DNA of 25,976 nucleotides from a virus: the IMG/VR virus record IMGVR_UViG_3300032236_001058, positions 1 to 25,976 of that record; one strand, 5' to 3'. Every line of letters starts with the position of its first letter. Within the stretch, counting starts at the first letter, position 1. Shown piece after piece: positions 5,201 to 23,757 of the stretch. Position numbers and translations under genes: made by a program. Under the pieces are notes generated by a model. That model searched no databases and was not told where the DNA came from. It saw nothing but the letters and a program-made list of their open reading frames with translations.

Positions 5201-6866
5201 ACCGGGTGCGAACACTTCTTCTATAGACAGAACTTTGCTCTATAATTTACAAGGCTTGATTAAATCAGGTACTTTTACAGTCTCTGGTTCTAATTTCACA
5301 ACGTTTAACCCGAACATCGGTTCAGCAGTAACTGGATTCTATCCTTCTCCTGTTACGAATTACAATCCAGCTACTTATCAGGTCACAAAAATGTCAGGTT
5401 GGATAAATCCTCTGACCAGCACCGGAACGCCTGGTGGAGTTTATACTATAAGAGGAGTAGGAACTAAATTCTTAACTGAAATAGTCGCTGGCAGCGATGG
5501 ACTTTTAAAAGATATTACTTTTAACGTCGCACCTAATTCATATAAAATCTCTCAAATCACTAAAGTTTTAAGCAACACTACCTTAGAAGCTTTATTAGTA
5601 CAAGAAAACGGATCTGATATTTCACTTCCTCTTTCAGGTGTGAATTTAACAGATTTTAAACATGGTACCTACGGTCTAATCGGTGGTGGTTTCGGAGTTC
5701 TTACTAATAGAATGAATCAAGTGAGCTTCTCTAACATTTACAATATGTTGAACCAAGGTTCGCCAGATGTAATATATGAGACGGTGAGTGAAACTGGGGC
5801 ACTGACGCATAATGATTTCTTAGTCGAACTATCTTCAGGTAGTTTAGACATGAAAGCTTCATATTTGAGATATGTACCTGATCCTAACAAACCAACTGCA
5901 TTTAATTTGCAGGATGTCGTAGGTTATGAGTTTGCAATATCTAAAAACCCTGGAGTGATTCCGATATACAGACAGCCAGGCAACTATAATATTAAATTTG
6001 TGGATCTCTTTAAATTCAAAGATCCTTATTTGCAAAATATTATAGAAAACATAGCGCCTACATCATATAAGCAAAATGTATTGAATCTTTGCAGATATAA
6101 AAATACGCAATTCGATACAAACTATCCTAATTTTGGACAAATCAGAAATTACTTCTTCCATAAAGTAAATTCTACTAATCCGGGTTCTATATTAGAACTT
6201 TCGAGTAATACTTCATATAGCAGCGTATATCCTTTAATCGGAGAAGTTGCAATAGACAAGAGAGATAAATTTTACGTCTTTGCTTCATCTTGGGATCCAG
6301 GGTATTTCACTACATATTTGACTAAAACTAGCAAATCATTGTCACCTGGCACTTTTGCTACCCTTGAACAGAAGAGCTTCTTTGGTTCTAAGTATCTTAA
6401 AGTTCCTCAGACTGTAATATTAGAAAATCTAGATACTTCTGAATTTTCATATTCATACGATAGTCAGAATACACTAACCGTATCTATAGATCTTCAAGCT
6501 AGACTGATTAGATTCTTTAGAGAGAATGCTTATAACATGTTCTTAAAATTTGTGAATCCAGCATATACGAATTTCTCACATACTGATCTTTCACAATTCA
6601 TAAATTCGTATGTAGAAAAGAACGTACTTCCTCTCTACAAATTGAATAATGTCAACATGTATCTCAAAGAAACTGCTGGTGGTACAGATGACTTTAGTTG
6701 GATGGCTTCTAGCAATCTAATTAAGTCTCAAGGTGGCTTGACTATCAATAAGAACTTCAGCATTCAAAAACAACGAGCGGACAGCTTAAATTTCAGTACA
6801 ATATATAGAAAGAAGCTAGGCTACTCAATATCGGTCGGAATCAGCATAAATCTAACTAAGAAATAA
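2274..6866 (+). CDS. Large (1530 aa) virion structural protein of unknown fold
   Basis: This is the largest gene in the window: 1530 residues from an ATG at 2274. It has no Shine-Dalgarno sequence and a GC-rich inverted repeat right before the start. The protein is rich in Asn, Ser, Phe, Tyr and Asp, has no signal peptide or membrane segment, and has the mixed beta composition of phage tail components. I recognise no enzymatic motif. Its stop overlaps the ATG of the collagen-triplet fibre-like gene by one base, so the two are probably translated together. Length and position between two tail-type proteins suggest a baseplate, tail-fibre-proximal or host-adhesion component, but that is inference. 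It is longer than T4 gp7 (about 1030 residues), and I see no clear similarity to gp7 or gp10. Confidence 0.6.
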   Translation: MAEAILDKASFQLIRTNPKLTTNVKLVVNSAGKIFLESFDANQVLSTSNYKASPVDPKSSYDKDVANFYTNRSTPKEIAYSSYQQSGDNAVLPSYDLQYEMFYASGTEAISSEAYTEDLGILAPLWLEEQMPDHFLIFRIDDPVAFNLVKQNSSSNGIDVANTPDYFDQKILQACTLIKSVDLTPASDIGSYLRNYRNQANFPESPLFLNLQSDQMTQYRGISFAEGRFADKGELLYSEFYKKDKSMIEQEYFTTSGFERNGVIVANLINLQFLFSDATAADYSINRYFGLYANMVEEGTFKIDSEGFYVNSTKEKNQKPALPTANALETLTYFSVENPEGVVMYYQNDSLATTTGEPTSDRVNEVSSIFVVKDKNGLLHSLKKGAQWDVNSVRLSDTKVNVADFGGYTASNGFFDTVLLEGKAKASVSWKISGEIPLGYTINFYDGSGFTLTLESNATLVNNKLGANSYGKSFEYFFNGQGQPMDIAKSIVSALNFYGQGQRFFSAIAQDDTVIIFSRFGGSRFNRLNFEVDGTIGVIPQLTVFPNKYDSGKFYFTGGSDYQKSRVKIPMSLHSSIVGKYTDLENYSKAECLGYGLYLDEPVFNQEGAPVQFKNVTNYVSAFFDEDNIKKSKSGGIAVYDLYSIPFGRLSVFPVRDFDFDFYSSQYSEEGELAEEYNQYNQNVKLVNPSQQILMVPVNQGSYPNIVNFYKNGGFTKLQPVLENTANSDIEEVIILSEYDRLFENFNKNLALFSRTNPNVCKWVYDNYGKDVRNKPYRFNFSDAFGVYNFSPSPLSNRQDALSFSHEWYYLGQVPDYFSDSGMMNSWSYFNFTPNDNVGSTLGFFQDITSDNFGDFFTVDHLISSGGGSPIFAYFDKQIRFSRFIGGDNQNFSQTFFRGIKVIAKERVEKTVHLNYNINSIQTAKNSNFNDYRFAAILIPTTRTDKPNFQIKVVRNKKWKTLTIMIFLNVNYPTMQPGANTSSIDRTLLYNLQGLIKSGTFTVSGSNFTTFNPNIGSAVTGFYPSPVTNYNPATYQVTKMSGWINPLTSTGTPGGVYTIRGVGTKFLTEIVAGSDGLLKDITFNVAPNSYKISQITKVLSNTTLEALLVQENGSDISLPLSGVNLTDFKHGTYGLIGGGFGVLTNRMNQVSFSNIYNMLNQGSPDVIYETVSETGALTHNDFLVELSSGSLDMKASYLRYVPDPNKPTAFNLQDVVGYEFAISKNPGVIPIYRQPGNYNIKFVDLFKFKDPYLQNIIENIAPTSYKQNVLNLCRYKNTQFDTNYPNFGQIRNYFFHKVNSTNPGSILELSSNTSYSSVYPLIGEVAIDKRDKFYVFASSWDPGYFTTYLTKTSKSLSPGTFATLEQKSFFGSKYLKVPQTVILENLDTSEFSYSYDSQNTLTVSIDLQARLIRFFRENAYNMFLKFVNPAYTNFSHTDLSQFINSYVEKNVLPLYKLNNVNMYLKETAGGTDDFSWMASSNLIKSQGGLTINKNFSIQKQRADSLNFSTIYRKKLGYSISVGISINLTKK

Positions 6867-9505
6867 TGGCGATCACAATATACGAAATTATCGCATCGGA
6901 CACCATCTCCCAGATGGCAGACAAGGTCAATTACAACTTTGACCAGCTGCTACAAAACGGTGGAGGTCCGGCGGGACCACAAGGACCACAAGGTCCCTTC
7001 GGACCAACTGGCCCTCAGGGCGTCGCAGGTCCTCAAGGAATTAGAGGTTCTAAATGGTTTGAAGGCAGCAGTTTTCCAACTTCTGGCGTAAATACAGGTG
7101 ATCTATTCTTAGACGTGAGTGGTTTAGTTTACGAATATAACGGATCAACATGGGTTTCTACTGGAATTGATTTAGTAGGTACTGGTACTGTGTGGGATGA
7201 AATTAACGGAGCATCTACTAGCATTAGCACTTCTTTGCCGGCTTACACATTTAGATATTTAAGACCTTCAATAAAGTTATCAACTAGTTCAGCCGGCGCA
7301 AGCAATGAACAAGCAGTATTAATCGGTGCAGCACCTTATGGCGCTGCAGATGATCAAGGAATAACTACACCGCCTGTTGATTATGTGACTGATACTTATG
7401 CAGCTGATATCAAAACAGATAATGCTACTCTTTTCGTTCACGCTCCTAAAGAATTAGGTCAAGGCAAGAACATCGTATTGTCTAGAACGATAGGCGATGG
7501 CTCTTCTTCTTTCAATACAGATGTAGTATCAGATATGAGCTACATCACATTAGATTTAGCTGATGGAATTGAAATATCAGGACAAAAGAGAGTAATAAAT
7601 TCTTCGATATACGGATCTTATCCAGAAGGAATTTTGATCAATACACAAGACTCGAGAACGAGGGTTAAATCAGGTAGAAACATAATCATAGAAACTGTAG
7701 ACCCTTTAACAGGTTACAATTCTAGCATATTCGGATCTGATAACAGCGTTGGAAATATCACAGTGCACGCAAAAGAATCTACGCTTTCAGGCTACGGCGG
7801 CGCTGCATTGACTTTGAAAAAAGGAACGAGTGGATCTTACGGTGATGCTATCATTGTCTTAGGTAATGTAAATCCTACGCAACCTGCAGCAGCTGGAGAT
7901 ACTACGATCTTCATGAAAAATGCGGGAACTAGCGGAGACATCATAATGTTATCCGGACGTTCTATAGTAACAACTTCGGGTAGAAGCTTTGCAATCAATA
8001 CACCAGGAGCAGATAATATTTCATTGGATGTTAGAGGCAATACGGCTTCTTCTCAATTGGTCTCTATCAAGAAAAATAATAATTCTGAAGCATTTGGTCT
8101 TTCTACTAGCGGTAGACTTACCCAAGCTTTGGCATTCCCTTCTAACGGTGTAAATTCTACAGATCCAAACTCTTTAGATTATTACGAAGAAGGTTCTTGG
8201 GCTCCTAATTTGGGTGTCTTCAATCCGAATTCAATCAGCGGAACTTTTGGAACTAGTGGAACTAGCAATTACAGTGTCGTAAAATCTAAATACACAAGAA
8301 TCGGTAAGATGATTACCGTTGATGCAGTATTCAATATTACGATACCAGGTTCGCTTAGTTGCCCAGGTTCAATAGATCACTTTGCGGCTAGTTTAATAGT
8401 GACTGGACTTCCTTATCAACCGGACTTAGACAATTCTACAATATCACCTACAAACCCTAACACAGATTACGGAATGCCTTTCTATTCTGCAGGCGCAACT
8501 GGATTGGGAGCAGCATGTTCTACAGATCCTAAAGTTGGAACTGTAAAAGCGTCATTCTATTGCGCAGGGACTAGCGGAGCAGCTATGGCATTCTTCGTAC
8601 AAGATACTAACGATGTCAATATGAGAAGATTGAGTTTTGTAGATTATCAAGGATCTACAAACGCAACTCTTAATTTCAGCGCAACATATCTAATAAGCGA
8701 ACAGGCAAACCCATGTTTAGGTGCAACTAGTGGAACTGGAGGTACGGGTGGTACGGGTGGTACGGGTGGTACAAGTTCGAATAATGGAACTGGAGTCTTA
8801 GTAATTTCTCAGACACAGGCCCCTTCTTCTGCACAACAAATCATAATTGAATCTAGTGATGATTTGATGACATGGACTCAACAAGATACTTTATCTAGAT
8901 CTAGCCCAGGAACAAGCACGAAGACAAATACTACTCTACCTTCATCTTCATACTATAGAGCTAGATTGACCAATAACACTATCGGTAGTGGTGTCGCAAT
9001 GCTCGGTAGGACTTGGGAAATTTCAAGTAGCGGTGGAACTAGTGTCGGACCTATTGCATCTCAAGGGCCTGATACTTCAGGTTATGGTGCATCTATCACA
9101 TGGTACGCTCCTAGTCCTTGGACTTCTGGAAAAGGTTACATCTTTGAAGCTAAGTTCTATGGAGCTGGAAGTTTCACACAAACTGGCAATACTACAGGTG
9201 GAAGCTATCCAAATTATTACAGGTACCAAACATTCACAGTTGGACCTTACGTTAACCCGGGAGACACCTACTATGTAGAAGTTTATAGTCACGTAGTAAA
9301 TTATGTCGTTCAGGCTTATGATACAGCTGCAGACGTTGCTACAGGGTTGATGTATGCCATAAATGCAACATCGACTTCAGATTGGAATTCTGCAGGTAGT
9401 GCACCGTTTGGAGCTTATGCATTCCCACCAACCGCAACGGTATCCGGAACTGATGTGAATGTAACATTGAACTACGCTAACCAAATGGGATGTGGAATAG
9501 TATAA
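6866..9505 (+). CDS. Collagen-triplet tail-fibre-like protein
   Basis: The product has 879 residues, and its ATG overlaps the preceding stop by one base. Residues 1-31 are a short helical head with an NYNFDQLLQNGGG motif. Residues 34-61 are nine uninterrupted Gly-X-Y triplets (GPA, GPQ, GPQ, GPF, GPT and so on), a collagen-like trimerisation stalk common in phage fibres. A long Ser/Thr/Gly-rich beta region follows. A flexible Thr-Gly-Gly linker near residue 626, encoded by a 9-base tandem repeat, separates a C-terminal module of about 240 residues rich in Tyr, Ser and Thr. Head, stalk, shaft, hinge and tip together fit a trimeric tail fibre or receptor-binding protein. The C-terminal module is the likely host-contact part, by analogy with other fibres. 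No enzymatic (depolymerase) signature is recognised. Confidence 0.72.
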   Translation: MAITIYEIIASDTISQMADKVNYNFDQLLQNGGGPAGPQGPQGPFGPTGPQGVAGPQGIRGSKWFEGSSFPTSGVNTGDLFLDVSGLVYEYNGSTWVSTGIDLVGTGTVWDEINGASTSISTSLPAYTFRYLRPSIKLSTSSAGASNEQAVLIGAAPYGAADDQGITTPPVDYVTDTYAADIKTDNATLFVHAPKELGQGKNIVLSRTIGDGSSSFNTDVVSDMSYITLDLADGIEISGQKRVINSSIYGSYPEGILINTQDSRTRVKSGRNIIIETVDPLTGYNSSIFGSDNSVGNITVHAKESTLSGYGGAALTLKKGTSGSYGDAIIVLGNVNPTQPAAAGDTTIFMKNAGTSGDIIMLSGRSIVTTSGRSFAINTPGADNISLDVRGNTASSQLVSIKKNNNSEAFGLSTSGRLTQALAFPSNGVNSTDPNSLDYYEEGSWAPNLGVFNPNSISGTFGTSGTSNYSVVKSKYTRIGKMITVDAVFNITIPGSLSCPGSIDHFAASLIVTGLPYQPDLDNSTISPTNPNTDYGMPFYSAGATGLGAACSTDPKVGTVKASFYCAGTSGAAMAFFVQDTNDVNMRRLSFVDYQGSTNATLNFSATYLISEQANPCLGATSGTGGTGGTGGTGGTSSNNGTGVLVISQTQAPSSAQQIIIESSDDLMTWTQQDTLSRSSPGTSTKTNTTLPSSSYYRARLTNNTIGSGVAMLGRTWEISSSGGTSVGPIASQGPDTSGYGASITWYAPSPWTSGKGYIFEAKFYGAGSFTQTGNTTGGSYPNYYRYQTFTVGPYVNPGDTYYVEVYSHVVNYVVQAYDTAADVATGLMYAINATSTSDWNSAGSAPFGAYAFPPTATVSGTDVNVTLNYANQMGCGIV
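6965..7048 (+). repeat. Collagen-like Gly-X-Y triplet run
   Basis: Nine in-frame Gly-X-Y triplets, residues 34-61 of the fibre-like protein, are encoded with variable codons. The selection therefore appears to act on the protein rather than on the DNA repeat. Such runs form triple helices in trimeric phage fibres. Confidence 0.8.
8741..8772 (+). repeat. 9-base tandem repeat encoding a Gly/Thr hinge
   Basis: Three perfect copies of GGTACGGGT at 8741-8767 plus a partial fourth (GGTAC) encode repeated Gly-Thr-Gly units. The unit is a multiple of three, so copy-number slippage would change hinge length without breaking the frame. Confidence 0.8.
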
Positions 9506-10483: not shown

Positions 10484-11860
10484 ATGACAAGTTCAAGGTT
10501 CATACCAATTTACGATGGAGCTCTGATAGAATATGTCTATTCGGATCCAGTCAGTCCGCTAACTTATAGCACGACTACTCTCCCAATAGAGATACTCATG
10601 GATGCATATACAGGTAACAGTTACATGTTCAATCCGATTGCATACGAGAACATCAGCCACAATATAAGAAGCAATTCAGCAGTGCCGATAGACGCTAATC
10701 TATCGACTTTCGCGTCTTTGACGACTGATAGAAGCATTTCTTATAATGATGTGGACCCTGATCTCACTCCAAATTCACAGGTCCTACAATCATTTTCACC
10801 TGCACAAAATATCGTATATGATACGGTGAAAGTGCATTTCGCAGCTGGTTTCAATTTTGATAATTTTGATGGATTCATCTTCCAAGCGAATTATCAAATG
10901 AGAGACATGGTTCGTTCTGGATTGATGTCAAGAGTCTATTTAAAAACTGACACTCCTAATTTCAACCCAAGACCTTTCATGATCGGTGAGAGATTGTACT
11001 CTACTTATATAGAATTAGACATTCCTTCTCTCAAGCACATCATCGATAATTTCTATACTCAACCGAATAATACTAACACTTTAGGTTATAAGTTGACAAG
11101 TGGAAAGGGATTCATTAAGACTAGCACGATAGATCTAACAGTCTTTGGAATTTATAAGACTACAAAGGAACAAGGATTTCCAATTTATTCTACTAAAAAC
11201 TTAAATACTGTATCTTTACCTCAGACTGATCCTTTCAATTTATTATCTGCGGTGGTCGAGCAATCAACGACTGGAGACTACTTTGAACTATACGGTGAAT
11301 ATGCGGGACAGATATTTGCAGATTTCATGGCTAGTCTAAATTCACAACCTAATGGTAATTGGGTTGTAGTACATCAGATAGACATGAAAGAACAGATAGG
11401 AACTTCTTTTGTAACTACTTCTTCTCAATCGATAACTCAAGTTGACAATTACGATCTTCCTACTATATACAGACCGGTAGTGATGAATTCTTCGATAGCA
11501 GTAAGTTTTACTATAGATTATATCTTGAGAATTATGAACAGAGACACTCAAGAGCAAATCATTAGAAATGCTTCTTTGACTTCAAGAGAAGTAGGTATCT
11601 ACGGTAGAAAACTTCAAAAGATCTATTTAGGAAAAGTACCTGAGATCGTTAAAGTCTATAATAAAGTGGTGGCTGACAATTCAAAACAGATAGTGATCGG
11701 TGGAAATACTGTCAATGTACAACAAAACCAAACGGGTCAAGTGGCTAATTCGCCGGTGACTACTCAGGTCGTAGTTAACACTGTCTTCAGAGACAGATCT
11801 ACTGTACTTGCAAAAATATCACCAGTCACCTTAACAGTAAATCAAAACACAGGTGGCTAA
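10484..11860 (+). CDS. Putative virion structural protein (458 aa)
   Basis: I place the start at the ATG at 10484, one base after the upstream stop, rather than at an in-frame ATG at 10436. The extra 16 residues from 10436 would lie inside the preceding gene's coding sequence for its hydrophobic tail. The product is soluble, with 458 residues, rich in Asn, Thr, Tyr and Ile, and has no signal peptide or membrane segment. No catalytic motif is seen. The C-terminal 70 or so residues are Val/Asn/Gln/Thr-rich. It overlaps the next gene, which starts with GTG, by 8 bases. It lies between the candidate lysis pair and coiled-coil virion proteins, upstream of a tail-tube-like gene, so a baseplate or tail component is the likely role. 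I do not recognise the family. Confidence 0.55.
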   Translation: MTSSRFIPIYDGALIEYVYSDPVSPLTYSTTTLPIEILMDAYTGNSYMFNPIAYENISHNIRSNSAVPIDANLSTFASLTTDRSISYNDVDPDLTPNSQVLQSFSPAQNIVYDTVKVHFAAGFNFDNFDGFIFQANYQMRDMVRSGLMSRVYLKTDTPNFNPRPFMIGERLYSTYIELDIPSLKHIIDNFYTQPNNTNTLGYKLTSGKGFIKTSTIDLTVFGIYKTTKEQGFPIYSTKNLNTVSLPQTDPFNLLSAVVEQSTTGDYFELYGEYAGQIFADFMASLNSQPNGNWVVVHQIDMKEQIGTSFVTTSSQSITQVDNYDLPTIYRPVVMNSSIAVSFTIDYILRIMNRDTQEQIIRNASLTSREVGIYGRKLQKIYLGKVPEIVKVYNKVVADNSKQIVIGGNTVNVQQNQTGQVANSPVTTQVVVNTVFRDRSTVLAKISPVTLTVNQNTGG

Positions 11861-13205
11861 TAGCATATCAACAAATACACTGACAACTGTCACGGCTTCT
11901 ACCTATACTTATTTAGCACAGGCCACGACACCTAACACACCGGAATATCTTCCTGGTGACGGGACTCTTGTAGTTCCAGACTTTGATAGCTATGTAATGT
12001 TTGACTTTTCTCAAAAGCTTCCAGATAATACTACGGTAGAGACTGATTTGTCTTCTGCAGGTGTGATCTATTTAACTTTTGTAGATGATCAAAGACAGGT
12101 TAAAATACCCTCTTTGGATAAAGTAGCAAATGCTAACAAGGTGATAGGACAAGTAGTATTCAAAATATCATCAGATCAAAGTTCTGCAATATTCCAACTC
12201 TCTAACAGATATTATTTTGTATCTTCTGCAGTTTCAGTGGGATCTGCAGTAGTCAATGAGACTGTCATCTATTCAGGAATTTGGCAAAAAGCAAATGAAC
12301 CTGAAAGGGTGACATATTCAGATAGGCTCAGACAGCTTAAGACTCAAGATGCCGCATCTAAAAGCACAGCGGATGCATTACAGAAAGAAGTAGATGATCT
12401 GTTAGCTCAAAAGAAAACTTATTCTGATAGATCTACAAGCCTAGACAAAATATTATCAGATCTTAAAAATCAAATAGGTTCTACTAGTGATGAAATATCT
12501 CAAATAGAGAGCAAGATAGAAAAGCAGAAAGAAGACGCACAAGCAGCAGCTGATGCTGCGGCTCAGGCTTCGGCAGATGCTAAAGCTGCCCAAGCTGAAG
12601 CAGATGCTAAAAAATCTAAGAGAAGAAAAGCAAAAGTATTAGAGAACAAACACACTTATACTTTCTGGGAAAGACTCAGCGGTATGTGGAAGAATCCTAT
12701 AGGTCTAATCGGATTTGTAGTGAATCCTTTTGTAGCAGTAGGTCAAATCGCATCAGCTGCTAGTAGTAGAAAATACAGCGTAACTTACGAATTAGAATTA
12801 GAAGATACAAAGGAGAAAGTAAAAATTAGAGGATTCAAAGCCATCTATTCAGATAGAGATAGTTTTATCAAAAATGTAGGAGTTGCGAATGCAAAAACTG
12901 GAATAGATGATTCTTGGTTCTCGATAAAAGATTCTGAAGGAGCTAGACCAGCTGCAGGAACTATCACATGGCTCGCATCTATTGAAAAGAGATTAGATCA
13001 ATTTGATTCTAAAGATCAATTTAAGACTATGGTAGGAACAGATCCAGTAATAGAACCACCAGCAGCTTACAATGATTCAGATAAGAGCGCTGCCGCATTC
13101 TATCTCGGAGGAAATGATCTATACTATTATAAGTATGTAACTTATGCTAGAGACGTAGATCCACAGAAAAAAATAACCGAGATAATCGGAGAAGTAGAAC
13201 TATAA
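11853..13205 (+). CDS. Virion-associated protein: N-terminal beta domain plus long Ala-rich coiled coil
   Basis: The product has 450 residues from a GTG at 11853, overlapping the upstream stop by 8 bases. Residues 40-145 form a beta-rich domain with the landmarks YLTF-x-D and VIYSG-x-W. Residues 155-255 are a long coiled coil ending in an Ala/Lys-rich stretch. A short hydrophobic, Gly-containing segment (about 282-303) precedes a C-terminal domain of about 145 residues. The N-terminal domain is related to that of the next gene, so the two are tandem paralogues with different tails. A beta domain on a coiled-coil stalk suggests a multimeric baseplate or fibre-attachment protein (inference). 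Function is not recognised. Confidence 0.6.
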   Translation: MANSISTNTLTTVTASTYTYLAQATTPNTPEYLPGDGTLVVPDFDSYVMFDFSQKLPDNTTVETDLSSAGVIYLTFVDDQRQVKIPSLDKVANANKVIGQVVFKISSDQSSAIFQLSNRYYFVSSAVSVGSAVVNETVIYSGIWQKANEPERVTYSDRLRQLKTQDAASKSTADALQKEVDDLLAQKKTYSDRSTSLDKILSDLKNQIGSTSDEISQIESKIEKQKEDAQAAADAAAQASADAKAAQAEADAKKSKRRKAKVLENKHTYTFWERLSGMWKNPIGLIGFVVNPFVAVGQIASAASSRKYSVTYELELEDTKEKVKIRGFKAIYSDRDSFIKNVGVANAKTGIDDSWFSIKDSEGARPAAGTITWLASIEKRLDQFDSKDQFKTMVGTDPVIEPPAAYNDSDKSAAAFYLGGNDLYYYKYVTYARDVDPQKKITEIIGEVEL

Positions 13206-13206
13206 T

Positions 13207-13974
13207 ATGGTAGACATACTAGTAAGCCCATTCGACAACTTTTTTCTCTTCACCATACAGTCTCAGGTGAACGGGTCGCAGACTGCGACTGACTTATCAA
13301 TTTATAGAGAAGCTTATCTGACTTTCAAAGATAATGACAATTATGCAGTGAGAATAAAATCTGCTCCTCTATATGGAACAGATGCGGCGACTAAAGGCGA
13401 GATCTCTTTCACGGTTCTCTCTTATGACGCACAACAAGCTAGAAAAATAAAGCAGAAGAATTTTTTAATATCAGTTATCAGAGACTATCCAGATAAAACT
13501 TCTGACGAGTCAGTGATATATTCAGGGACATGGGATCTTTTTGAAAAGAGTGCAGAACTTGAATATAACACAGTTTCGGCTGGAGTCCAAGCCAATTTAT
13601 CGCAAGATCTTGCGAATGTTGATGCTCTGACTAAACAGAAAGCTACATTAACAGCAGAAGTAGCAGCTTTACAAGATGCAGTTTCCTCAAAAGAGAGCGA
13701 AAAATCTTCTCTAGAAACAACATTAAACGCAAATTTAGCTAAGCTTTCCAGTTTAAAAACTAGCGGTCGTACAATTGATGGAATGACAAAGCCTGGACAA
13801 GGCGCACAAGCCATGCAGAACGACACTAACGCTTCTTTAGAATCTGGGCAGAAAGCAAATATTGCAAAAGTGATACCTGAAGTGGCAACACCATCGGATG
13901 TTGCGGCAAACCTCAGAAGAGGAGCTATTAACAGGACTTTCACTACAACAGACCCAAATGCTAACTTTAAATAA
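13207..13974 (+). CDS. Shorter paralogue: beta domain plus coiled coil (255 aa)
   Basis: The ATG lies one base after the preceding stop. Residues 8-110 match the N-terminal domain of the upstream 450-residue protein in layout and landmarks: an aromatic DNFFLF opening, TDLS, AYLTF-x-D, then VIYSG-x-W. Residues 118-186 are a coiled coil rich in Ala, Leu, Glu and Lys, followed by a Gly/Ala/Asn-rich tail with no fold I recognise. The stop overlaps the ATG of the tail-tube-like gene by one base. Tandem paralogues that differ after the shared domain suggest two related baseplate or fibre-connector subunits that pair with each other. That role is inferred; the shared domain can be seen directly. Confidence 0.6.
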   Translation: MVDILVSPFDNFFLFTIQSQVNGSQTATDLSIYREAYLTFKDNDNYAVRIKSAPLYGTDAATKGEISFTVLSYDAQQARKIKQKNFLISVIRDYPDKTSDESVIYSGTWDLFEKSAELEYNTVSAGVQANLSQDLANVDALTKQKATLTAEVAALQDAVSSKESEKSSLETTLNANLAKLSSLKTSGRTIDGMTKPGQGAQAMQNDTNASLESGQKANIAKVIPEVATPSDVAANLRRGAINRTFTTTDPNANFK

Positions 13975-14528
13975 TGCTACAGAGCGCCAAAAGTAACCAG
14001 TTTAGATTCAATTTCCCGAGAGCTTTCATCCCGGCAGAAATCAGTGCAAAGTATTCTAAATACATGAATAGAATACCAGGGAACATTATCAGTGATCCAC
14101 TGGAACTGATCAACTATTCAGTTCAATCTATAGTGTTACCGAGCTTTTCCTACGATCCTGTCCAACAGGTCGACAACCCAGGAGCTAAAAGACAATACAG
14201 GTCTTCTTTGCCACAAATTGAACTCTTTGCGAAAGAACTCAGAGTCAGCATGCAGGCGTTTGATGGCTGGTTCAATTACTGGCTCATGTATGAGACATTC
14301 CAGTACTACTACAATTTTGCTGAGAAGAATCCCTATCTGCCTGACGGCTTTAGACTTCAGATGATAGATGGTGAGGGTAACATATTGGTCACTATTAGAT
14401 TAGATAGAGTTCTCTTTCAGAGCGTTCCCGATCTGAATCTCAATTTCTCAACGAACACTCCTGACTTCAAAACCTTTGAGGTGGTCTTTGTCTACAATAA
14501 CTTGTGGATTGACCTCGAGTTCCAGTAA
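13974..14528 (+). CDS. Tail-tube-fold protein (gp19/gp54-like)
   Basis: The product has 184 residues, with the ATG overlapping the previous stop by one base. The order of elements matches T4 tail-tube-type proteins. An N-terminal F-x-F-x-FP strand is followed by a QSIVLPSFS segment (compare the LPAG region of gp19), then an extended loop with RQYRSSLP. A strand-helix DGWFNYWLMYETF follows (compare the W-containing helix of gp19), then a G-N-I-L-V-T-I-R-L strand, and a final FKTFEVVFVYNNLW-type strand (compare QTFEVTLALDYW). This is recognition by pattern, not by alignment score. Tail-tube proteins stack as hexameric rings; gp48 and gp54 form the first rings on the baseplate. Neighbouring baseplate-type genes favour a gp54/gp48-like role over the main tube protein. 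Confidence 0.55.
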   Translation: MLQSAKSNQFRFNFPRAFIPAEISAKYSKYMNRIPGNIISDPLELINYSVQSIVLPSFSYDPVQQVDNPGAKRQYRSSLPQIELFAKELRVSMQAFDGWFNYWLMYETFQYYYNFAEKNPYLPDGFRLQMIDGEGNILVTIRLDRVLFQSVPDLNLNFSTNTPDFKTFEVVFVYNNLWIDLEFQ

Positions 14529-14539: not shown

Positions 14540-14890
14540 ATGAAAGACATGCAAACATTCAACGAGTTCATCGGAGAAGCTTATGACCCTAACGAGATCG
14601 AGGCTCTATTGAACGAGAACGTTGATCAGAATATGATTGATGAAGCACTTGCTGCTTTCATCAAAAAAGCAAACGAAGAAGGTTATACCATCCAACAACT
14701 CCAAGAAGAACTTGCAAATGAGGGATTCATCGGATCTATATTGGGAGGTCTTACCGGATTTGCTTTAGGACAAGCAGTTGGAAGAATGGTAGCGAACGCA
14801 TTAGGTGTAGAAAAAGGACTCTTATTCGACCTCATGACTTCAAGAGTCATCGGCGCAGCTATCGGATATCACTTAGGAAAAAGAATCTAA
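14540..14890 (+). CDS. Candidate internal head protein with capsid-targeting N-terminus and glycine-zipper C-terminus
   Basis: The product has 116 residues. The N-terminus MKDMQTFNEFIGEA closely resembles the T4 internal-protein capsid-targeting sequence MKTYQEFIAEA, including the F-I-x-E-A cleavage site. An alternative ATG at 14549 would give a start that aligns directly with T4. The ATG at 14540 is preferred because it puts the two Phe at positions 7 and 10, as in the sibling genes. Possible prohead-protease sites (I/L-x-E) are at 11-13, 24-26 and 33-35. Residues 16-61 are acidic and helical. Residues 63-112 are hydrophobic with Gly spaced every 3-4 residues (glycine-zipper-like), suggesting membrane insertion. 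In T4 such proteins are packed in the capsid, trimmed and injected. The targeting call is well supported by motif; the membrane role is inferred. Confidence 0.62.
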   Translation: MKDMQTFNEFIGEAYDPNEIEALLNENVDQNMIDEALAAFIKKANEEGYTIQQLQEELANEGFIGSILGGLTGFALGQAVGRMVANALGVEKGLLFDLMTSRVIGAAIGYHLGKRI

Positions 14891-14903
14891 ACAAAACATA
14901 AAA

Positions 14904-15896
14904 ATGAAAAAACACGTCAAACTCTTCGAAGATTTCATGAGTGACAAAGAAAACTTAATGATCGCAGAGTCATTATCTTCTCCAATACTTGCTGGTATTC
15001 TTAATTTAAGATACGCAGGCAATGATCTTTTCAAATACTTCTACGGAGCATCTAAGATTCAATTGGATAAAATTCAAGATTCTGACATCATCACAGCTAC
15101 TCCAAGCGAAGCCCTCAGATGGAAAGGTGATGGAGCTATCTTCTACGTTAGCACTACAGAAAAAGAAAACCCTTACACTCCTGACAATGCTGCATGGGAC
15201 TATTCTAGCGTTTCTGTCATCCCAGCAAATACTCTTTTAGCTATCACTACAGGTGATAATAAATTCATGGGGACTGACTGGACCAAATGGAACGGAAAGA
15301 CTCTACGCACAATCGATAGAGTTAGTCAAGGTAATAGCGGAGTCGGTATCAAAAAACCAGCAAGAGGTTGGGACGCAACAGGTTTGGTAAATGCAAAGAG
15401 AATTGCAGAAGTTTCAGACGTTGCTTACATCGTTGATTTTGCTGCTTTAAGAGCTAATTATGATGCAAGAGGAATTAGAACTGATAGAGCTGCAGCTAGA
15501 AGCGGAGCAACTGCAATGATGAGCGACAAAGAGTTCAAACAACAAAACATGGCTAGATACAAAGAGATCTTAGCTACTAGATATGAGAATGATGGCGTCG
15601 ACCAAGAAGTACAAAGAGCTATCGAAAATGCAACTGCTATGATAACTGCAGGCATGAGAAAGATGGATCTTAACGGTTACGGTGAAATCAACTTCGGTAA
15701 GAATAAGAGAGGCGGACTAATTCGCATGTCAGACATTACTAACTGGATGAGCAATCTAATGAGCGATTACGAAAGATATGTTAGATATGCGAACGATTCA
15801 AAAGGGAATGATTATTACGAAAAAGAGAAAAAGACTTACGCTCTTAGTATCAAAGATAGAATTGAAAAGTTCAAAAAGAACGACATCGGTTGGTAA
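14904..15896 (+). CDS. Candidate capsid-targeted internal protein (330 aa)
   Basis: The ATG at 14904 follows an A-rich leader, 13 bases after the previous gene. The N-terminus MKKHVKLFEDF has the shared tag, one residue longer than its siblings, and an I-A-E site at residues 20-22 where a prohead protease could cut. The body is soluble and of mixed alpha/beta character. A Trp/Asp/Asn-rich part lies at 94-160. A helical part at 176-226 carries the landmarks ARGIRTDRAAARSG and FKQQNMARYKEI. I looked for an ADP-ribosyltransferase (the T4 Alt cargo enzyme) but did not find a convincing Arg...Ser-Thr-Ser...Glu-x-Glu set. Function of the mature body is unknown. Position in a run of five tagged genes supports a head-internal location. 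Confidence 0.55.
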   Translation: MKKHVKLFEDFMSDKENLMIAESLSSPILAGILNLRYAGNDLFKYFYGASKIQLDKIQDSDIITATPSEALRWKGDGAIFYVSTTEKENPYTPDNAAWDYSSVSVIPANTLLAITTGDNKFMGTDWTKWNGKTLRTIDRVSQGNSGVGIKKPARGWDATGLVNAKRIAEVSDVAYIVDFAALRANYDARGIRTDRAAARSGATAMMSDKEFKQQNMARYKEILATRYENDGVDQEVQRAIENATAMITAGMRKMDLNGYGEINFGKNKRGGLIRMSDITNWMSNLMSDYERYVRYANDSKGNDYYEKEKKTYALSIKDRIEKFKKNDIGW

Positions 15897-15910
15897 TTTA
15901 AAACAGAAAC

Positions 15911-17227
15911 ATGAAACACATAAAAGAATTTGAATCTTTCTTAGACGAGAAGATCAACGAGACAACTTATATCTTCCACGTATATCCAAGAGATGAATAC
16001 GGAGATCATATTCCGACTAAGAAGAAAGAAGTAAAAATCAATAGAGCGAGCATTGAAAGTGCAAGAGACGTTCTCTATAAGAAATATCCAAGATCAGATT
16101 TCTTTTCAGAACTCTATTCTACTTTAAACGAAAAGGAATTCTCATCTGAAGAAAGAGAAAAATTAGCAGATAAAGGTTATGCTCTTCCTGATGGAAGCTT
16201 TCCGATTGCTACAGTCGATGACTTAAAGAACGCAGTACATGCTTTCGGTAGATCAAACGATGAAGACAGAAAGAAAGTGGCTCAACATATCGCAAAAAGA
16301 GCGAAAGCATTAGGTCATGCGGATCTCATTCCTCAGACTGACATCTTCCAAAAAGCTCTTAAGGAAGATCTTGAAGATACAATGTGTCAATGCACAGGCT
16401 GTGGTGCTACTGCAGAATATGAAGCATACCAAGAAAATCCTAACATGACTTGCGACGAATGTGGTGGTTCATCATGGGCTACTTCAGTGTCAGAAGGTGC
16501 ATTTCACGTAGCTCTCTATAAAGCTAGAAACGAAGGAGCCAAAGAGTTTGAATTCAAAGGTCAGAAGTTTCCAGTTCACCCTAAGAAGGGAGAGCCTGAA
16601 ATGATCGATGAAGAAGACGAAAAGGTAGAGGAAGGTGTAGTTTCTATCAAAGGCGGTAGAATCTTAGCCAATAAAGTCCTCAATAAATTGGTGGACATGG
16701 ACATCGTTCCAGTAAAGAAAAAGTCTGAAGAAGCAATCGAAGCAATCGCTTCAGTTTTGGCTACGACTTCAATGTCTGAATCTCTTAACGAAGGCACTTA
16801 CGAAGTACATTTTTCTGATGGAGTAAGAGCTTCTAAGAAATTTAATAGTCAATCACAAGCAATTTCTTTTGCTAAGGATTTGATCAAGAATAAAAAGGGT
16901 TTGCAATTCGTAGACGTATTTGATGCAGGTTCTGGTTTCCACTCTACTGCAGATACTGATGCAATTGTTGCATGGTGGGGAGACGGTTCTTATACGGATA
17001 ACAAATCTAAGAACGATTCTAAACTTGCAGCTAAAAAGATTGAAGAATCTCTTGACGAAGCGATGGTACAAGTCGCAGGCAAAAACAAGCCTTCAGGTGC
17101 ACAGGTTCTTGCTATGGTTATCATCGATCACATGATTGAGAATGGCTACTTAAAACCAGGAGCTGATAAAGTCAAGAAGGAACTCACAATGGATCTACAG
17201 AAATTAATCATGGACAGCACGTTCTAA
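15911..17227 (+). CDS. Candidate capsid-targeted multidomain protein with zinc ribbon and DUF6582-like segment
   Basis: The product has 438 residues. The N-terminus MKHIKEFESFLDE carries the shared tag, with L-D-E at 11-13 and I-N-E at 15-17 as possible protease sites. Residues 88-141 (ALPDGSFPIA...DLKNAVHAFGR...HIAKRAKALG) match the DUF6582 pattern found in phage head proteins. Residues 157-185 form a zinc-ribbon-like module: Cys159/161 and 164, then Cys181 and 184. Further I/L-x-E sites occur at 72-74, 232-234, 292-294 and 381-383, mostly between compact segments, so the protein may be cut into several pieces. The 298-385 segment contains an AWWGDGS motif. It sits in the run of tagged genes. 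Tag and domain landmarks are visible; multi-site processing is inference. A free-standing virion protein is possible. Confidence 0.55.
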   Translation: MKHIKEFESFLDEKINETTYIFHVYPRDEYGDHIPTKKKEVKINRASIESARDVLYKKYPRSDFFSELYSTLNEKEFSSEEREKLADKGYALPDGSFPIATVDDLKNAVHAFGRSNDEDRKKVAQHIAKRAKALGHADLIPQTDIFQKALKEDLEDTMCQCTGCGATAEYEAYQENPNMTCDECGGSSWATSVSEGAFHVALYKARNEGAKEFEFKGQKFPVHPKKGEPEMIDEEDEKVEEGVVSIKGGRILANKVLNKLVDMDIVPVKKKSEEAIEAIASVLATTSMSESLNEGTYEVHFSDGVRASKKFNSQSQAISFAKDLIKNKKGLQFVDVFDAGSGFHSTADTDAIVAWWGDGSYTDNKSKNDSKLAAKKIEESLDEAMVQVAGKNKPSGAQVLAMVIIDHMIENGYLKPGADKVKKELTMDLQKLIMDSTF

Positions 17228-17238
17228 AAATCACAATC

Positions 17239-17565
17239 ATGAAATACGTAAAATTATTCGAAGACTTTGTAAAGATTATCGATAGCAAAAAAATGTCGAA
17301 GCGAGCTTTTTTAGAAGAATTAAAAAAGACAAAAAAAGGCGACTTGATTAAAATAATTCGTAAAGATGGTGCACTTTGGCATGAAACGATTGTATATGGT
17401 ACGTATGTACTTTCAGCTAGAGATTGGGAGGTTAGCGGAAATACAACTATAGGCCCTGCTTGTACAGATTTTCAGACCCGAGGTCTCTCTAACTATTATC
17501 AAGATTTTTGGTCAATGATGCTGAACGATGAATTTCAAATACAAATCATAAAAAAGGACAAATAA
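17239..17565 (+). CDS. Candidate capsid-targeted small protein (108 aa)
   Basis: The N-terminus MKYVKLFEDFVKI is almost the same as that of the next gene. The first 36 coding bases differ at only four positions, with 19 identical in a row, but the rest of the two proteins is unrelated. After the tag there is a basic helix with many Lys (17-40). A compact beta-like region with conserved-looking Trp and Tyr residues follows. No I/L-x-E site occurs close to the tag; the first is L-E-E near residue 27. The stop overlaps the next ATG by one base. Function after the tag is unknown. Head loading is inferred from the tag and neighbours. Confidence 0.5.
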   Translation: MKYVKLFEDFVKIIDSKKMSKRAFLEELKKTKKGDLIKIIRKDGALWHETIVYGTYVLSARDWEVSGNTTIGPACTDFQTRGLSNYYQDFWSMMLNDEFQIQIIKKDK

Positions 17566-17861
17566 TGAAACACATAAAATTATTCGAAGACTTCGTAAAA
17601 GTCGATGAATCTATTGACATCAAATACTGGTCAGATTATAACACTGATACTTCAGGACAAAGTGACCCAGATTATGCAAATAAATCTAAAGATTTTGAAG
17701 GCACTTTCAAAGAAGCTGTAAAAGACTGGAATGATATGGGAGAAGATCCAATAACTAATCAAGAAGCTGAGAAAGTTAAAAAGATCGCAAAAGAATTCTT
17801 CAATAAGACAGGTTGGATCTCAGTTAACGTTGCAAGCGCAATGATAGCACAAGAAGCTTAA
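17565..17861 (+). CDS. Candidate capsid-targeted small protein (98 aa)
   Basis: The ATG overlaps the previous stop by one base. The N-terminus MKHIKLFEDFVKVDE carries the shared tag. V-D-E at 13-15 is near the expected protease position but has Val instead of Ile/Leu. The remainder is acidic and soluble: a Tyr/Asp/Ser/Asn-rich linker (22-47), a helical stretch with DWNDMGEDP, and a Lys-rich helix near the end. No known domain is recognised. It is the last member of the run of five tagged genes. A role as a small head-packaged, injected protein is inferred. Confidence 0.5.
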   Translation: MKHIKLFEDFVKVDESIDIKYWSDYNTDTSGQSDPDYANKSKDFEGTFKEAVKDWNDMGEDPITNQEAEKVKKIAKEFFNKTGWISVNVASAMIAQEA

Positions 17862-22983: not shown

Positions 22984-23757
22984 ATGCAACCAATTCAAAA
23001 ATTCTCAGACTTCCAGAACAAGCGAGCAGAAAGTGCTCAAGCTGTTAAAGAAGCTGATTTGCAAAAAGAATACGGCGAAGTATTCACATCTTTACTTAAG
23101 AAATACGGAGTAAGTTCACCAGCTGAACTTGATGACGCTAAGAAGAAAGAATTCTTCAACGAAATCGGTGATTTCTACAAAGCAGGCGAAGGCCAAACAG
23201 ATAAAGGAGAAGATCTAGTAGATAAAGAGGGCGGCGAAGCTCCAGTCAAAGAAGAAGACGAATCTACTGAAGATGACGAAGAAAAAGAAAAAGAAGAAGC
23301 ACCGGCTGAAGAAGCTCCTAAAGAAGAAGCACCAGCTGAAGAAGCTCCTAAAGAAGAAGCACCAGCTGAAGAAGCTCCTAAAGAAGAAACACCAGCTGAA
23401 GAAGCACCTAAAGCTGAAGATGACGAAGAAAAGAAAGAAGAAGTAGAAGAAGCTGAAACTAAAGGAACTGAAATTAAGAAAGCTCCTGAAGAAGATACAG
23501 AAGACGAAGTAGAAAAAGAAATTGTTGATATGGGAGAGCCTGAAACAGCAGGTGGTGAAGTTCCAAAGCAAGAAGAGCCAGTAACTCCAGCTGCAGATAC
23601 TCACGATGATCCAGAAGCTGGTAAAGCTGCTGAAGCTGTTCCAGATGAGGAAACTGCTAAAGAGATCGAAAAAGAAAAAGTAGAAACAGGAAAACCTGAG
23701 AAGGTTGTAATGGACTTCGATTCTTTCGTTAAATCTAATTTTGCTCCTAAGGGCTAA
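22984..23757 (+). CDS. Acidic, repeat-rich protein with capsid-targeting-like N-terminus (prohead-core candidate)
   Basis: The product has 257 residues. The N-terminus MQPIQKFSDFQNKRAES has Phe at 7 and 10, like the five tagged proteins upstream. Residues 18-75 form a helical domain (EYGEVFTSLLKKYG..., KKEFFNEIGDFYKAG). From about 78 onward it is very acidic and Pro/Ala/Glu-rich, with three copies of EAPKEEAPAE. The C-terminus ends in MDFDSFVKSNFAPKG. Highly acidic, tagged proteins are known in T4 prohead cores (for example gp67), where they fill the scaffold and are degraded before packaging. That role fits but is inferred. It is isolated from the other tagged genes by the replication block, has its own box-bearing gap upstream, and is closed by a strong terminator. 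Confidence 0.55.
   Translation: MQPIQKFSDFQNKRAESAQAVKEADLQKEYGEVFTSLLKKYGVSSPAELDDAKKKEFFNEIGDFYKAGEGQTDKGEDLVDKEGGEAPVKEEDESTEDDEEKEKEEAPAEEAPKEEAPAEEAPKEEAPAEEAPKEETPAEEAPKAEDDEEKKEEVEEAETKGTEIKKAPEEDTEDEVEKEIVDMGEPETAGGEVPKQEEPVTPAADTHDDPEAGKAAEAVPDEETAKEIEKEKVETGKPEKVVMDFDSFVKSNFAPKG
23311..23400 (+). repeat. Three 30-base tandem repeats (EAPKEEAPAE)
   Basis: Units at 23311-23340, 23341-23370 and 23371-23400 are nearly identical; the third has Thr in place of one Ala. A degenerate half-unit precedes them and another follows. The near-identity at the DNA level suggests recent slippage, and the length is a multiple of three, so the frame is kept. Confidence 0.85.

Follow-up and report, generated by a model that had tools for sequence, protein, structure and literature searches.

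Why would five unrelated proteins, encoded side by side in a phage genome, all begin with nearly the same few residues? The question is raised by IMG/VR record IMGVR_UViG_3300032236_001058, a complete 26-kb record (25,976 nucleotides, referred to below as the window) that represents a piece of a large T4-like phage. Five consecutive genes at 14540-17861 (p1 to p5) encode proteins with a near-identical N-terminal tag, and a preliminary description had compared this tag to the capsid-targeting sequence of the internal proteins (IPs) of phage T4. All five open reading frames (ORFs) were recovered at these coordinates, and a sixth, weaker tagged gene at 22984, which had been missed, was added (Table 1). 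We find it highly probable that the tag is a capsid-targeting sequence like that of the T4 internal proteins, with loading into the head, cutting by gp21, injection and exchangeable payloads. The tag would thus mark proteins that probably travel in the virus head and enter the host by injection.

Table 1. Tagged genes and predicted cleavage sites in the window; a slash marks the predicted cut, aa stands for amino acids.
Feature	Position	Strand	N-terminal start or site	Remarks
p1	14540-14890	+	MKDMQTFNEFIGEA	116 aa, or 113 aa if translation starts at Met4 (14549); the tag MKDMQTFNEFIGE/A precedes a glycine-zipper hydrophobic domain kept in relatives
p1, predicted gp21-type cleavage Glu	14576-14578	+	IGE/A	T4 rule (L/I)xE (PMC9026906)
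p2	14904-15896	+	MKKHVKLFEDFMSDK	330 aa without a known domain; the aromatics are residues 8 and 11; Asp replaces the usual Glu; later site IAE/S, residues 20-22
p3	15911-17227	+	MKHIKEFESFLDEK	438 aa; polyprotein-like: tag, N-domain, then modules (homology)
p3, predicted cleavage at Glu294	16790-16792	+	LNE/G	Start of DUF2188-like module; same module after LNE, INE, VSE, VDE or VNE/G or A in relatives
p3, predicted cleavage at Glu383	17057-17059	+	LDE/A	Before C-terminal module; KIDE/A in locus L130, NLDE/A in locus L133
p4	17239-17565	+	MKYVKLFEDFVKII	108 aa; tag MKYVKLFEDFV; no obvious (L/I)xE at residue 13; missing from closest relative
p5	17565-17861	+	MKHIKLFEDFVKVDES	98 aa; tag MKHIKLFEDFV; site VDE/S at residue 15
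Sixth tagged gene	22984-23757	+	MQPIQKFSDFQNK	257-aa acidic repeat protein; weaker tag MQPIQKFSDFQ; candidate prohead-core component; phrog_28651, 6e-10

Near the N-terminus of all five proteins two aromatic residues stand three apart, as they do in the weaker 22984 protein. The preliminary description had placed Phe at positions 7 and 10 throughout, which was correct for four of the five, whereas the 330-aa p2 has Phe 8 and Phe 11. Beyond the tag the bodies differ, as had been described, with no shared sequence. The pattern M[KQ]x4-5FxxF was present at 6 of the 25 called gene starts of the window (simple longest-ORF calls) compared to 3 of ~4,240 internal Met positions (0.07%; four genomes pooled), and the binomial probability of at least five in 25 gene starts is ~1e-11. 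A position matrix was trained on 14 tags of a 256-kb contig from a relative (G006) and scored across four genomes. Three of the five window tags scored 19-27 and the 116-aa p1 scored 5.4, with none of the ~3,600 internal Met controls reaching a score of 6 (best 4.1).

A shared start could also be a feature of the DNA, either a translation-initiation leader or a recombination seed for gene swaps, with no function as a protein tag. The first 33 bases of p5 are identical to those of its counterpart in the closest relative while the bodies differ, an identity which suggests the tag DNA may also help recombination. However, codons within the tag vary synonymously within a genome (Phe7 TTT/TTC 11:7; Phe10 TTC/TTT 10:9; Ile, Val and Leu alternate) and the DNA upstream of tagged genes is not shared within a genome, indicating that selection acts on the protein; we regard a DNA-level feature as highly improbable. 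A stricter DNA pattern of the tag gave zero matches in bacterial and archaeal genomes totalling 257 Gb, and many in the viral loci.

The residues conserved in the tag match those mapped in T4. In T4 IPIII, mutagenesis assigned targeting to residues 4 and 7 (Tyr, Phe) and a requirement in processing to residues 8 and 10 (Ile, Glu); Asp at position 10 blocked cutting and left targeting intact, and the prohead protease gp21 cuts after (L/I)xE (PMC9026906). The pattern observed here, F/Y7-x-x-F10-[ILV]11-x-E13, is the T4 pattern shifted three residues later. When tagged genes were picked by residues 1-10 only, a hydrophobic residue at 11 together with Glu13 was present in 21 of 22 genes in G006 and 21 of 37 in LR756500.1, a 462-kb uncultured phage, compared to 1-3% of other genes with a hydrophobic-x-Glu motif at the same place. 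A looser motif recovers T4's own IPII and IPIII. The resemblance of the 116-residue p1 to T4 MKTYQEFIAEA, pointed out earlier, proved to be in register from Met4 (MQTFNEFIGEA), and the true start of p1 could therefore be 14549. Orthologues of p1 in several contigs and LR756500.1 start MKTFVEYLEE, MKTFLDYMAE or MKDIKTFKEYLQE, and the p1 N-terminus gave a sub-threshold PHROGs match to an 'internal head protein' (phrog_2667; E 0.034). Plain [LI]xE counts were not enriched in single-payload tagged proteins, with enrichment only in polyproteins, in head proteins and at residue 13.

Relatives of the window carry the tag in large arrays. A protein search with the 438-aa p3 returned 16 viral loci, one of them in G006, and a matrix score of at least 6 was reached by 24 genes in G006, ~30 in LR756500.1 and three in the window. 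In G006 ~15 tagged genes almost adjoin each other at 193-200 kb. A degenerate-DNA scan of viral contigs gave at least 120 stretches and a second scan was added, resulting in at least 124 viral loci, at least 323 tagged ORFs and at least 140 payload families, as counted with a motif that requires the aromatic pair. The 138 tagged proteins that represent 138 of the 140 families align only over MKHIKLFExFxNE, and their bodies are mutually unrelated. The closest relative of the window (locus L130 in contig G028) is syntenic with it, with tail, resolvase and replication genes 65-92% identical, p1 81% and p2 78%. Here the payloads have been replaced behind the conserved tag: p4 is missing, p5 combines the tag and a kept C-terminal AMIAQEA with a different body, and p3 keeps two modules with the others exchanged at xE/ boundaries. 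The modular cargo set proposed in the preliminary description is supported by these arrays and exchanges.

The probable polyprotein nature of p3 had not been recognized in that description. After the tag and N-domain, p3 consists of an ALPDGSFPI module (75-141), a zinc ribbon (161-184), an AFHVALYKAR module (from 196), a VVSIKGG module (from 242), a DUF2188-like module (295-382) and a C-terminal module (384-438). The zinc ribbon noted earlier is visible as a zinc-ribbon-like C161xxC164...C181xxC184. The boundaries between modules fall at gp21-type sites (LNE74/, VSE195/G, VEE241/G, LNE294/G, LDE383/A). Several phage homologues of the ALPDGSFPI module begin at p3 residue 75, some of them annotated as capsid maturation protease, and in one locus (L008) the DUF2188-like module follows a tag-like start almost directly. 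In two G006 polyproteins, 14 [LIV]xE[AGS] sites were counted compared to 3.3 expected, with a maximum of 10 in 500 shuffles. The AlphaFold model of p3 was too poor for use (predicted local distance difference test, pLDDT, 45.6), so its domain boundaries are taken from homology alone. p3 has the appearance of a polyprotein with gp21-type sites at the joints between its modules, and it is probably cleaved internally at these positions.

The genes that surround the tag in relatives connect it with the head. A gp21-family protease (PF03420) is encoded in 18 of the 19 tag-bearing contigs, including the closest relative G028, and also in G003, G004, G006 and LR756500.1. These proteases sit in open frames of 525-747 aa with, where read, a second, repeat-rich part. 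In most relatives a tagged acidic protein of ~113-151 aa is encoded between portal and protease, the place of gp67 in T4, to which it is likened by gene position, small size and acidity. This protein is absent from G028 and LR756500.1, where the portal adjoins the protease, and in G028 the protease and major capsid genes flank a tagged protein, MFIKDFGSFLNEA. The strongest case for placing the tag in prohead assembly comes from these tagged proteins beside head genes; together with the match to the residues mapped in T4, they uphold the capsid-targeting reading first put forward for p1 to p5.

The same genes bear on a second alternative, that the tag forms an amphipathic helix and directs proteins elsewhere, for example to an infection compartment or the host membrane, with (L/I)xE being incidental. 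A short tag of mixed hydrophobic and charged residues is compatible with such a helix, and it also favors this explanation that the tagged proteins are known here from genes alone. It does not account for the presence of the tag on the gp67-position protein beside the protease and on the protein between protease and capsid gene, for the strong fixation of Glu13 (21 of 22) or for a pattern equal to the mutagenized T4 signal, and we consider it improbable.

In G006 (51569-53383; L023) and G028 (44974-46818; L248) the gp21-like protease shares one open frame with a long fused segment in which Y/H-(L/I/V)-(A/V)-E units recur. Every such unit could be a site of self-cleavage, and the whole looks like a protease combined with a scaffold.

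Recognizable payloads were found mainly in relatives, where the preliminary description had missed those with likely anti-defense roles. Pfam families among the 138 representatives were Tad3, Zeta toxin, PNK3P, LRR, CTP-transferase, ATP-grasp and PAP2, and selected tagged proteins matched GNAT, R2K ATP-grasp, a DUF2201 metallopeptidase and Acb1/2H. Tad3 (anti-Thoeris) was present in 4 of 49 contigs and tagged in three, Acb1-like (anti-CBASS) proteins were present in nine of the 49 and clearly tagged in eight, and in G006 both genes lie within the same tag array. Untagged Tad3 homologues exist in contig G010 and in Vibrio phage phi50-12, whose homologue starts at the domain, indicating that the tag is an add-on. 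As to whether close relatives lack the tag, a point raised in the preliminary description, p1, p2, p3 and p5 keep it and Tad3 homologues occur both with and without it, a mixed presence that fits modularity. Once injected, the T4 IPs all three act as inhibitors of GmrSD restriction enzymes (PMC12373910), which makes an anti-defense role a natural guess for many other payloads. Many of them may disarm host defenses at entry.

A third alternative accepts that the tag loads the prohead but takes the cargo to be mostly structural or scaffolding components of the core that are degraded or kept in the head, and not injected effectors. The gp67-position protein and the acidic 22984 protein look like core proteins, p1 is conserved together with its place in the gene order, and T4 IPIII affects head shape (PMC9026906). 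Against this, the recognized payloads are enzymes or inhibitors of immune signals (Tad3, Acb1-like, Zeta-like kinase, GNAT, ATP-grasp, PNK3P), the payload sets are highly variable and each of the three T4 internal proteins is an injected GmrSD inhibitor (PMC12373910). A mostly structural cargo is, in our assessment, possible but unlikely.

If the tag is a capsid-targeting sequence, its aromatic-x-x-aromatic face would bind the prohead core during head building, and any protein bearing the tag would be loaded. A gp21-family protease would then cut after the hydrophobic-x-Glu that closes the tag, and at such sites between polyprotein modules, freeing the payload within the head. DNA would be packed around the payloads, which would be injected along with it. 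Behind the tag, one payload is replaced by another. Several points weigh against this sequence of events. The tagged proteins, as said, are known as genes, and the window, a 26-kb fragment, contains neither head genes nor a gp21-family protease; the latter is therefore known from relatives only. Possession of gp21 is probably common to the whole class of large T4-like phages, and its presence is thus necessary and not discriminating. Among the five window proteins, the hydrophobic-x-Glu at residue 13 is intact in p1 and p3 alone; p2 carries Asp there and a later IAE/S, p5 has a later VDE/S and p4 no obvious site. The Acb1 scores were barely above the cut-off (~27-31 bits; cut-off 27), with three of the nine below it, and most payloads have no assigned function, so the anti-defense reading is drawn from few recognized families.

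The system shares with T4 IPI, IPII and IPIII (MKTYQEFIAEA) a 10-13 residue N-terminal tag with aromatics three apart and a hydrophobic-x-Glu end (within the window intact in p1 and p3), varied payloads behind one tag, and a gp21-family protease (here encoded by relatives). In contrast to the three tags of T4, tag-bearing relatives of the window have dozens per genome, the spacing from Met is mostly three residues longer, there are multi-module proteins with predicted internal cleavage sites, and the payloads include enzymes and anti-Thoeris and anti-CBASS families. The phages are also larger (~150-460 kb) and distant kin of T4. We regard this as a new and greatly enlarged version of the T4 internal-protein system. 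To our knowledge T4 injects few proteins, with known targets only for the three IPs plus Alt. A polymorphism of internal proteins has been described in T-even phages, with at least 10 recognized by their signal (Repoila 1994, as cited in PMC12373910). There, diverse payloads likewise stand behind one signal at variable loci, and the survey was limited to T-even phages of enterobacteria, unlike the present set. Inner-body or ejection proteins of the jumbo phages phiKZ and SPN3US carry propeptides cut by a gp21-related protease (PMC9026906). These are proteins packaged in the head of a jumbo phage, cut after a Glu motif and ejected, as is predicted for the proteins described here. We know of no description of the phiKZ and SPN3US propeptides as one short shared tag, and the tag here is of the T4 type and unlike them. 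Polyproteins, the prohead protease and capsid targeting were not mentioned in a comparative review of jumbo phages, and a literature search, with most subscription journals outside its reach, found no paper joining a capsid-targeting sequence with metagenomes.

Tags differ between lineages. Mean identity over tag residues 2-10 was 0.54-0.64 within G006, LR756500.1 and Sphingomonas phage PAU and 0.16-0.39 between them, a difference inflated by the picking of tags with motifs. With the tight tag pattern, LR745206.1 gave one match and Lak-B1, PAU and MaF61 gave none. In PAU (an isolate, JQ362498; L253-L265) ~17 genes, mainly at 100-114 kb, start MKT(L/I)xxLYE(A/S), a dialect of its own without the Phe-x-x-Phe of the tag described here. 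Several continue with LNE(A/S), many lie round the portal-protease genes, and gp154 is annotated as an internal capsid protein. These dialects would fit one lock per phage that is recognized by many keys. We lean, by a modest degree, toward a broader proposal in which a general code for loading capsids, comparable to a secretion signal, operates in large T4-like phages. Every lineage would have its own dialect, common to all its payloads and presumably co-evolving with the core, and a phage would bring up to ~30 different effectors made in advance, among them anti-Thoeris and anti-CBASS proteins and polyproteins that are cut in the head. With effectors preloaded in this way, inhibitors of immune signals would arrive with the DNA and not be made after infection.

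Should the tag indeed stand for packaging and injection, sequence alone would suffice to list the proteins that many uncultured jumbo phages inject, with at least 140 payload families here, and what such phages inject becomes directly testable in an isolate such as PAU. The tagged Tad3 and Acb1-like proteins suggest that the remaining payloads are a hunting ground for counter-defense proteins, and the short tags offer a means of loading chosen proteins into large capsids.

PHROGs and Pfam searches of the window payloads gave little beyond the weak phrog_2667 match of p1 and DUF2188 in p3, leaving p2 and p4 without a functional assignment. The glycine zipper of p1 is visible but scored below the Pfam cut-off (13.8 compared to 25 bits). 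No known domain was recognized in p2: its AlphaFold model (pLDDT 75.7; residues 1-19 below 50) had no match in PDB by Foldseek (best E 0.19), and a sequence-profile search of PDB and a search of the isolate collection gave no match. The p2 orthologue in the closest relative, 78% identical, keeps the later site as IVE/S. A 674-aa protein of G006 (81047-83071; MNFQNFLNEKY) has a p2 homologue as its C-terminal half and an internal stretch resembling a tag, FIYESFSEFVNSIDE, and it looks like the product of a fusion between two tagged genes. The 22984 protein has the same aromatic spacing with a degenerate start, and its N-terminus resembles that of a polyprotein-like protein of relatives.

Two further sets of tagged proteins were observed in relatives. 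Proteins of 421-426 aa in G006 (86205-87485) and LR756500.1 (267941-269206) contain a KxDG-like motif of nucleotidyltransferases/ligases, and their homologue in Microcystis phage Mel-JY01 is without a tag and fused to a cytidylyltransferase-like domain. In LR756500.1 (L045-L070; e.g., 12631-13428, 13446-14282, 180972-181730) 13 proteins end in (N)ADDFGFFDN or close variants, a possible second targeting or processing signal. Twelve of the 13 are also N-terminally tagged, and several of these have leucine-rich repeats between the two ends. In one of the twelve, at 11601, the called frame places the tag at residue 36.

The order of genes in the window is tail and baseplate-type genes, the tagged genes, then a RuvC-like resolvase, gp32, a gp61-like primase, a UvsY-like gene and a UvsW-like helicase, the UvsY and UvsW names being tentative. 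Megablast found no nucleotide relatives of the window among isolated phages; its gp32 is 60% identical to that of LR756500.1. A tail-fibre-like protein at 6866-9505 contains a short collagen-like GPxGPQGP stretch near its N-terminus.

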